From positions 1-32,251 of the forward strand of contig JAIKYQ010000185.1 of the NCBI GenBank assembly GCA_024683035.1: a DNA stretch of 32,251 nucleotides. Reading direction: 5' to 3'. The stretch comes from Eubacterium sp. (GTDB lineage: Bacteria > Bacillota > Clostridia > Lachnospirales > Lachnospiraceae). A program made the position numbers and the translations under genes. The notes under the pieces are model-generated. The model was not told where the DNA came from and searched no databases. It saw only the letters and a list, made by a program, of their open reading frames with translations. Positions 12,361 to 16,536 of this stretch are shown here, piece by piece (the stretch's first letter is position 1; each line of letters opens with the position of its first letter).

Positions 12361-13495
12361 TCAGATCTGCTGATGTCCTTCTTTCTTCTGGAGAGCCCGC
12401 CATTTCAGGTAGGCATTGATAAACGGATCCAGGTCTCCGTCCAGCACCCTGTCGGCCTGCCCGCGTTCCTCGTCGGTACGCAGGTCCTTGACCAGCGTAT
12501 ACGGCTGCAGGACATACGAACGGATCTGGTGCCCCCAGGCGATATCTGTCTTTTCTCCGCGGATTCCTGCCTCTTTTTCCGCCTGTTTCTCTCTCTCCAG
12601 CTCATACAGCTGCATCCGCAGAACCTGCATGGCCTTATCCTTGTTCTGGAATTGAGAGCGTTCATTCTGACAGGTCACCACAATGCCTGTCGGGATATGC
12701 GTAATCCGGATGGCCGAGGAGGTCTTGTTGATGTGCTGGCCGCCGGCGCCGCTGGAACGATAGGTATCGATCCGGATATCTTCATCCCGGATCTCGATAT
12801 CGATCTCCTGATCGATGACCGGCATCACATCACACTGGCAGAACGACGTCTGCCGTTTGGCCTGTGCATTGAACGGACTGATCCGTACCAGCCGGTGGGT
12901 TCCCTTTTCGGATTTCAGATATCCGTACGCATTCTCCCCGTTGACCTGGAACATGACTGATTTGATTCCGGCCTCGTCGCCTTCCTGATAATCCAGTACT
13001 TCGACTTTGTAGCCTTTGCGTTCCGCCCAGCGTGTGTACATACGGTACAGCATGCCGCACCAGTCCATGGCTTCGGTCCCGCCGGCACCGGACTGCAGCC
13101 GGAGGATAGCGTCACAGTCATCGAACTCTTCGGAGAGCAGCGTTTTCATCCGGATCGATTCAAGATCATTCTTGAATTCCTCCAGCATCTCCCGGACCTC
13201 CGGCACGACGGACTCGTCATCCTCTTCCTCGCCCATCTCGATCATCGTTTCGATGTCTTCCTTGGCGGAAACCAGCTTTTTATACGTATCCCGGTCTTCC
13301 TTGAGACTGCCCAGTTCCTTAACCTGCTTCTGCGCTTCTTCCGGTCTGTCCCAGAAATCCGGTTCCTCCATTTTTCGTTCTAATTCTTCGATCCTCTGCT
13401 CTTTATTGGCGAGGTCAAAGTGAATCCCTCACTTCCACAAGCGGCTGATCGTATGTGCGGATTTCATTTTTCATGTTCTGCAGTTCCACAACCAT
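12361..13495 (-). CDS. prfB: Peptide chain release factor 2 (programmed +1 frameshift)
   Basis: RF2 body with SGAGGTEAMDW and RSSGAGGQHINKTSSAIRITH; short 5' frame MVVELQNMKNEIRTYDQPLVEVRDSL* (ATG at 13495) joins it at CTT-TGA-C. Confidence 0.95.
13414..13420 (-). promoter_or_regulatory. prfB +1 frameshift site CTTTGAC
   Basis: Minus strand GTGAGGGATTCA-CTT-TGA-C; in-frame TGA after CTT with an upstream AGGGA; the +1 frame continues DLANKEQRIEELERKMEEPDFW. Confidence 0.93.
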
Positions 13496-13529
13496 CTTGC
13501 TCACCTTCTTTCTTAGTGAAATTTTATTT

Positions 13530-13900
13530 GATAAGCCTCCGGCAAGTGACGGCTGTTCCGCAGGCTTGCCTGCAGGAACATACCGGAATTTGCCGGGACA
13601 ACAGATATGAGCATGCAGGGCTGCGGCCCGGAATGCGAATATCTGCAGTACCGCGGAAGCTGCTTTGCAGCGAAGCGGTACGAGGCTTATTCATTTTATT
13701 CATGATCCATTCATATCACAGCAGTGCCGTGGCAGCTCGTTTTGTGAGTGAACATTCTGCCAGGAACGCAGCTGAGATCTACTGCTTACGAAGACTTGCT
13801 TCCGAAGTAAGAGAAAATCGTTCGTCGAATGCTTCGGAAGCTTAGCCGGAGTCAGCAGTCAGCTCAGCAAAGTGGGGCAGGTTCACGACAAAACCTGCTG
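13530..13900 (+). ncRNA. Candidate structured RNA or structured repeat in the secA-prfB gap (unnamed)
   Basis: Closing stem ATAAGCCTC/GAGGCTTAT (13531-13539/13682-13690) encloses three hairpins; more hairpins follow at 13710-13752, 13771-13868 and 13877-13898. Non-canonical positions look RNA-like only on the + strand. Confidence 0.4.
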
Positions 13901-13932: not shown

Positions 13933-16536
13933 TCAGGCCGGCTTCCGCCCGCAGCACTGCTTGTATTTCAGTCCGCTGCCGCAGGGGCAGGGATCATTCG
14001 GATAGATCTTTTTATCCTTGCGCTGTTTCGTCTTCTTCGTGCCGCCGTCATCCCGGTTGGTGCCGGTGACCTGCGCCACCTGTTCCCGTTCGACCGGCTC
14101 CTGGATCCGGACATGATACATCAGCCGGATGGTATCCTGCTGGATGCCGCCCGTCATCTCATTGAACATGTCGTACGCGATCATCTTGTATTCGATCTTC
14201 GGATCACGCTGTCCGTATGCCTGCAGGCCGATCCCCTGACGCAGCTGCTCCATATCGTCGATATGGTTCATCCATTTTTCGTCGATCACCTTCAGCAGGA
14301 CCACCCGCTCCAGTTCGCGGATCTTTTCTTCAGACGGGAACTGCGCCTCTTTTTCTTCATAGAGTTTGACGGCTTCTTCTTTGATCTTCTGTTTCAGCTC
14401 TGCCTGATTGCCGCCGGCAATATCGGCCTGTGTGACCGGTTTGATCGGGATGATCGGGATCAGCAGACGATTCAGCTCGTTCACATCCCATTCATTACTG
14501 TCATTTTCCCCAAAACAGGTTTCCACGGTGCTGTCCACCGTATCATAGATCATCTTCATGATGGACTCGCGCATATTTACGCCGTCCAGCACCTCCCGGC
14601 GTTCTTTATAGATGATCTCCCTCTGCTCATTGTTGACACTGTCGTAATCCAGCAGGCTCTTACGGATGCTGTAGTTATTGCTCTCAATCCGTTTCTGCGC
14701 CCGTTCGATCGCCGAAGACAGCATCTTATGCTCGATCTGCTCATTCTCTTCCACGCCCAGAGACGTGAATATGTTCATCAGCTTCTCGGATCCGAACAGC
14801 CGCATCAGATCGTCTTCCAGAGAGATATAGAAGCGGGATTCGCCCGGGTCTCCCTGACGGCCGGAACGGCCGCGCAGCTGGTTGTCGATACGGCGGGATT
14901 CATGCCGCTCTGTGCCGATGATCTTCAGACCGCCGGCAGCGCGTGCCTCGTCGTCCAGCTTGATATCGGTACCACGGCCGGCCATGTTGGTGGCGATCGT
15001 CACGGTCCCCGCCTCACCGGCATGGGAAACGATTTCCGCTTCCACGTCATGGAATTTGGCATTCAGCACCTGATGCGGGATCCCTTCCCGTTTCAGCATG
15101 CGGGAAAGCAGCTCGGAAGTCTCGATCGTGATCGTACCGACCAGGACCGGCTGTCTCTTTTCATGTGAAGCCTTGATCTCTTCGACAACCGCATGGAATT
15201 TCTCTTTTTTCGTCATATAGACGGCATCTTCATGATCCACACGGATCACCGGCACATTGGTCGGGATCTCGATGACGTCCATTCCGTAGATGTCCCGGAA
15301 TTCCTGTTCTTCCGTCAGAGCCGTACCGGTCATGCCGGCCTTTTTCTCATACTTGTTGAAGAAATTCTGGAACGTGATCGTTGCCAGGGTCTTGCTTTCG
15401 CGTTTGACCTTGACATGCTCTTTGGCCTCGATCGCCTGATGCAGACCGTCGGAATAACGGCGGCCCGGCAGCACACGGCCGGTAAACTCATCTACGATCA
15501 TGACCTGGTCGTCTTTGACGATATAATCCTGATCGCGGAACATCAGATTGTGCGCCCGCAGTGCCAGGATCGTATTATGCTGGATCTCCAGGTTTTCCGG
15601 ATCGGACAGGTTCTCAATGTGGAAGAACTGTTCGACTTTGTGCACGCCCTGCTCTGTCAGCGTAACGATCTTGTCTTTTTCATTGACAATGAAGTCACCG
15701 GTTTCGATGATCTCCTCGCCCATGATAGCCGTCATCTTCGTGACTTCCCCGGACGCCTCACCCTTCTGCAGCTGTCCTGCGAGGATATCACAGGTTTCGT
15801 ACAGTTTGGTGGATTTGCCGCTCTGCCCGGAAATGATCAGCGGTGTGCGTGCTTCATCGATCAGAACCGAGTCCACTTCGTCGATGATGGCAAACGCGAG
15901 GTCACGCTGCACCAGCTGCTCTTTATAGATGACCATGTTGTCACGCAGATAATCGAATCCGTCTTCGTTATTGGTGACATAGGTGATATCACAGGCATAC
16001 TGCTCACGGCGCTCATCGTTTTTCATGGAGTTCAGCACGCAGCCGACCGTCAGCCCCAGAAAACGGTGCACTTTGCCCATCCAGGCCGCATCACGTTCCG
16101 CCAGATAATCGTTGACCGTGATGATATGCACGCCGCGGCCCGTCAAGGCATTCAGATAGGCGGGCATAGTGGAAACCAGTGTTTTACCTTCACCGGTCCG
16201 CATTTCTGCAATACGTCCCTGATGCAGGATAATACCGCCGATGATCTGCACGCGGTACGGTTCCAGCCCTTTTCCCGGCTCCGGATCGATATCCGGTCCC
16301 GGCCCGATCACGCGGCGCGCCGCCTCGCGGACTGTTGCGAACGCCTCCGGCAGAAGATCATCCAGGGTCTCTCCGGCAGCCAGACGCTCTTTGAATTCCT
16401 TCGTCTTTCCCCGCAGTTCCTCGTCGGAAAGAGCCACCATGGTATCCCGGTAGGATATGATTTTATCAACCAGCGGCATAATGCGCTTCAGCTCGCGCTG
16501 GGAATGGGTTCCGAATAGTTTCTCGGTAAATTTCAT
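13933..16536 (-). CDS. secA: Preprotein translocase ATPase SecA
   Basis: [49 protein letters not shown]-terminal zinc motif [16 protein letters not shown]. Confidence 0.98.

Follow-up and report, generated by a model that had tools for sequence, protein, structure and literature searches.

Between secA and prfB, the window (the whole 32,251-nucleotide stretch of DNA analyzed here) contains a folded sequence that belongs to Clostridiales-1, an RNA family that is catalogued but unexplained. It is very probably one copy of a MITE-like, nonautonomous mobile element with the Clostridiales-1 RNA domain as its body. A cmscan search of the entire window against Rfam 15 returned a single match, RF01699 (Clostridiales-1 RNA) at 13531-13690 on the plus strand, which spans the full model (1-166) and scores 92 bits (gathering score, 48). 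The first-pass annotation had recognized no named RNA family here; the match overturns that statement and excludes a new ncRNA family. Rfam assigns RF01699 the type "Gene; sRNA," and the founding paper, in the parts available to us, lists it as probably RNA and probably not cis-regulatory, with occurrences in Clostridiales and the human gut (Weinberg et al. 2010, PMC2864571). The main-text passages of that paper that were searched, its supplement aside, contained no discussion of mobility or copy number. A literature search found no functional paper on Clostridiales-1 and, the founding supplement again aside, none that treats it as mobile.

The genes flanking this copy, identified with Pfam, are secA (13933-16536, minus strand) and prfB (12361-13371, minus strand, plus a frameshifted 5' part). 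What appears to be the usual programmed +1 frameshift site of prfB (CTTTGAC) lies at 13414-13431 on the minus strand, upstream of the open reading frame at 12361-13371, and prfB itself begins still farther upstream, near 13474. The features of the gap are as follows.

13521-13527, no strand: left target-site duplication, ATTTTAT, identical to 13693-13699 and fitting the family target consensus WTNNNAT
Left copy to 13528 and right copy to 13700, no strand: the direct repeat in its extended form, ATTTTATT
13528-13692, plus strand: copy of the probable mobile element, TTGATAAGCC...AGGCTTATTC
13531-13690, plus strand: RF01699 Clostridiales-1 RNA match
13540-13595, plus strand: hairpin 1, with a CUUG tetraloop at 13565-13568; GCUUGC is conserved in the family
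13602-13645, plus strand: hairpin 2, with a near-invariant tandem G-A (13609-13610 with 13637-13638)
13649-13680, plus strand: hairpin 3, whose purine internal loop is the conserved G-rich/GGA loop of the family alignment
13693-13699, no strand: right target-site duplication, ATTTTAT, identical to 13521-13527

The predicted RNA fold of 13520-13701 on the plus strand has a closed three-hairpin architecture at -93.8 kcal/mol, compared with a mean of -56.2 for shuffled sequences (z = -8.87; 0 of 200 as stable). The minus strand folds at -84.9 kcal/mol (z = -8.89), again with no shuffle as stable. The closing stem pairs ATAAGCCTC (13531-13539) with GAGGCTTAT (13682-13690) and adds a G13530-T13691 pair. 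The closed domain proposed at 13530-13691 by the first-pass annotation was thus borne out (z = -8.9), with every stem where it had been placed and the tandem G-A oppositions it quoted present in the window copy. Only this copy has the tandem G-A of hairpin 1, whereas that of hairpin 2 is a family feature.

Covariation was assessed in 38 diverse copies. Double compensatory changes occur in 34 of 36 pairs. Paired cells make up 91.5%, versus 32 to 44% when partners are slid, although the absolute percentages lean towards structure because the structure was derived from the alignment, itself made from sequence. In hairpin 2, 37 of 38 and 38 of 38 sequences retain the tandem G-A, and G-U combinations outnumber A-C in paired columns (58 versus 25). 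These alignments demonstrate what is evidently strong compensatory selection on the fold. Together with the RF01699 match on the plus strand, the G-U excess and the near-invariant tandem G-A uphold the earlier preference for that strand, and the conservation pattern favors a functional folded plus strand, as RNA or as single-stranded DNA alike.

The family is a dispersed intergenic repeat, essentially confined to Lachnospiraceae. The search for further copies that had been proposed alongside the original annotation yielded nine RF01699 matches in the window's own draft genome (2.24 Mb) and 1 to 67 in each of the 16 genomes of the genus, all of which carry the family. Named relatives identify the taxonomic family as Lachnospiraceae; the nearest relatives are metagenome-assembled genomes. 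Matches occur in 161 of 299 Lachnospiraceae genomes, in 9 of 291 genomes sampled across the class (seven of those nine being Lachnospiraceae), and in none of 14 control genomes. The complete 3.5-Mb chromosome of genome G285 holds about 93, spread around it. Its copies split about evenly between the two halves in a hand count that assumes the origin at position 1, and thus there is no sign of replication-fork targeting. The repeats are short (about 150 to 205 bp), noncoding, and intergenic. A second subfamily of about 205 bp (L333-L341 and L343) lies alongside the 153-bp one in the G285 chromosome, and in genome G062 a divergent subfamily (L195-L197) ends in GATTAAAGGGTCAAAAG or GATTCAAGGGTCAAAAG.

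Plasmids gave no match for a G285 copy, and a pattern scan of IMG/VR gave no match. Carriage by phages was considered and rejected, as the "phage" records with matches hold ordinary bacterial housekeeping genes. Six GenBank scaffolds labeled "UNVERIFIED: Bacteriophage sp." (MT837342, MT839188, MT840010, MT837314, MT837121, and MT837347) carry elements and encode, for instance, DNA polymerase III gamma/tau, phosphofructokinase, and pyrroline-5-carboxylate reductase. These scaffolds are probably chromosomal contamination.

Element edges were read across 118 copies, and target duplication was tested in 88 copies with shuffled pairings as controls. In 39 of these 88, the 7-mer to the left of the initial GAT is repeated exactly after the right end, compared with a mean of 1.87 and a maximum of 6 in 1,000 shuffled controls. 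Because the eighth base matches in only 14 of the 39, near chance, the duplication length is fixed at 7 bp. The target consensus is A+T rich and reads WTNNNAT, or A/T-T-N-N-T-A-T in an alternative form. Copies have inverted ends, GAT...ATC, with the right boundary mostly ATC. The inverted ends GATRCCAGGGTCAAAAG and GATGTTGGGGTCAAAAG were found in four genomes; since full-length G285 copies end in a tail hairpin, TAAGGGGTCAAATTACTTTTGACCCCAACATC, these outer ends are the inverted repeat there. The window copy has no tail hairpin, and its terminal inverted repeat, GATAAGCC / GGCTTATTC, doubles as the closing stem. The family therefore displays the terminal inverted repeats and fixed-length target-site duplication of a MITE. 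TATAAT-like hexamers peak near the left junction, and insertion aimed at a -10 promoter box was accordingly considered; it was dropped because the A+T-rich column composition predicts about as many by our estimate (13 observed versus about 9.6 expected at position -10).

A highly conserved RNA-type fold in a mobile repeat, with many end-truncated copies, also brings to mind a bacterial SINE-like retroelement, in which the folded RNA is reverse transcribed and integrated by target-primed reverse transcription. The fixed duplication length, truncations at both ends, and ends that are inverted repeats speak against such a route, which we consider highly improbable.

Recent amplification, genome by genome, is evident from comparisons among copies. 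In G285, the median identity of 58 copies to their nearest neighbor is 98%, the nearest neighbor resides in the same genome for 57 of 58, and six pairs of identical copies occupy unrelated loci. The window copy and most others in its genome are old, with 50 to 78% identity to their nearest relatives. Tandem pairs have the same 7-mer at their junctions (e.g., L104 and L100), which is true of full tandem dimers, and at five G285 loci (L101, L107, L109, L110, and L125), the right target duplication is directly followed by a short piece of another copy's left end. The dimers and fragments may have arisen because a single target was used repeatedly or through a tandem intermediate.

These observations bear on whether the family is a conventional trans-acting sRNA gene that happens to be multicopy, as its Rfam type, its strong covariation and plus-strand signal, and its founding rating as probably RNA and not cis-regulatory (PMC2864571, as far as that source was available) would suggest. 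Such a gene would not be expected to show exact 7-bp target duplications, inverted ends, element-free sites, or near-identical copies at unrelated loci. Moreover, the sequence upstream of the target has no position-specific composition typical of an element-owned promoter, and no promoter or terminator consensus was matched around the window copy. We therefore regard an sRNA gene as very unlikely. Of the original proposal of a candidate ncRNA, the conserved, covarying structure stands; an ncRNA gene belonging to the secA-prfB locus does not, as the family is a dispersed mobile repeat. Either a known Rfam family or a mobile repeat had been named beforehand as a match that would count against that proposal, and both were found.

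Read in the prfB direction, ATTTTAT becomes ATAAAAT, part of AATAAAAT, and AATAAAAT is present once in the prfB leader of G004, G006, G009, and G014, all of which lack an element in that gap. For these element-free sites, the alignment crosses the junction on the prfB side only, the secA side having diverged. Genomes G002 and G010 carry an element in the same gap and orientation, an arrangement that could suggest a locus-specific prfB leader or an antisense regulator selected at this site. However, the G002 and window copies share only 63% identity, nearer relatives have no element there, and around prfB in 80 other genomes only three loci have any match; site-specific regulation is therefore extremely improbable. 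The prfB gene of G006, with its empty gap, is 88% identical to that of the window genome, while those of G002 and G010 are 79% identical. Because the closer genome lacks the element and the more distant ones have it, either independent insertion or insertion followed by loss is needed, and either history would imply mobility. Elements also lie just downstream of prfB in congeners (G011, L143; G012, L142; G009, L136; and L228), and so the prfB neighborhood appears to be a repeated insertion site.

A search for the mobilizing enzyme, using patterns of the left and right ends together with 40 regions, found no autonomous transposon with the same ends. The pattern searches and regions yielded copies that were truncated or had internal deletions, plus a few full-length variants, with no gene between the ends; the lone ends examined in G285, G247, G206, G117, and G062 all turned out to belong to such truncated or deleted copies. 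Among transposase families, G285 lacks DDE_Tnp_1, G062 and G042 lack Transposase_mut, G247 lacks Y1_Tnp, and DDE_Tnp_IS1595 is missing from all four high-copy genomes. As each of these four families misses at least one high-copy genome, none is the common mobilizer. We use the term "MITE-like" and assign no transposon family because the parent transposon was not found in the genomes searched for ends.

The Y1 result is pertinent to REP/RAYT-like repeats, which a Y1 (HUH) transposase mobilizes by working on folded single-stranded DNA. The intergenic location, the hairpins with mismatched stems, and the tandem clusters, as well as the presence of Y1_Tnp in G285 and G042, fit that description. 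Nevertheless, Y1 transposition leaves no target duplication, contrary to the 7-bp duplications found, and G247 has 31 matches without Y1_Tnp. This is the least probable of the explanations that we weighed.

The MITE-like reading suggests the following course of events. An enzyme making a 7-bp staggered cut would insert the element, and gap repair would yield the duplication; the fixed 7-bp length points most simply to a DDE-type transposase provided in trans. The window copy would have inserted into the prfB leader at its A+T-rich AATAAAAT stretch, shortly upstream of the gene's ribosome-binding site, in antisense orientation to prfB. After insertion, the conserved fold may act as a leader RNA that insulates or processes mRNA. 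ERIC and NEMIS RNA have likewise been proposed to affect mRNA processing, in an orientation-dependent manner for ERIC (review PMC2229807). Alternatively, the fold may be the plus-strand DNA or RNA recognized by the mobilizing machinery.

Copies are sense to the right-hand gene in 92 of 135 cases, and the bias is seen in G285 (39 of 58; P = 0.012) and elsewhere (53 of 77; P = 0.0013), with genes called by a simple open reading frame rule and copies taken as independent. The family is most likely an intergenic, selfish element of MITE-like character. Its RNA fold would be maintained either for tolerance and processing inside host transcripts or for recognition by the mobilizer; owing to the sense-orientation bias, we lean slightly towards the former.

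On the MITE-like reading, what is catalogued as an sRNA gene is more aptly viewed as a mobile repeat present in high copy in Lachnospiraceae, a major group of gut bacteria, and the dozens of "sRNA genes" per genome in automatic annotation would be insertions. A puzzle is that the element preserves three covarying hairpins and unpaired purines that hardly vary, more than inverted-repeat DNA transposition by itself would call for. We can envisage mobile elements of a new class, for which the conserved structured RNA, or folded single strand, is required for mobility beyond the DNA ends and an undescribed enzyme uses the fold and the 7-bp WTNNNAT target, but we think this unlikely.

Compared with Clostridiales-1 as catalogued, the window copy agrees in its full-length model match, strand, fold, and conserved loops. 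The difference lies in the interpretation: a probable noncoding RNA in the available parts of the founding paper (PMC2864571) is here a mobile repeat bounded by inverted ends and flanked by 7-bp duplications. Those ends and duplications fall just outside the Rfam model, as does the right-end tail hairpin of many copies. The element shares with the bacterial MITEs ERIC, Correia/NEMIS, RUP, and YPAL (PMC2229807) a length below 200 bp, an intergenic location, the lack of an open reading frame, inverted ends, target duplication, and transcripts predicted to fold. Unlike them, it has no TA termini and a 7-bp WTNNNAT duplication, and in place of one long stem-loop, it has a junction of three hairpins that evolves by compensatory change and contains unpaired motifs that are near invariant. 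REP/BIME repeats with RAYT transposases (PMC2817692) are likewise intergenic, high copy, folded, and arranged in tandem clusters; in contrast to them, the Clostridiales-1 element has target duplications and no Y1 transposase common to its high-copy genomes.
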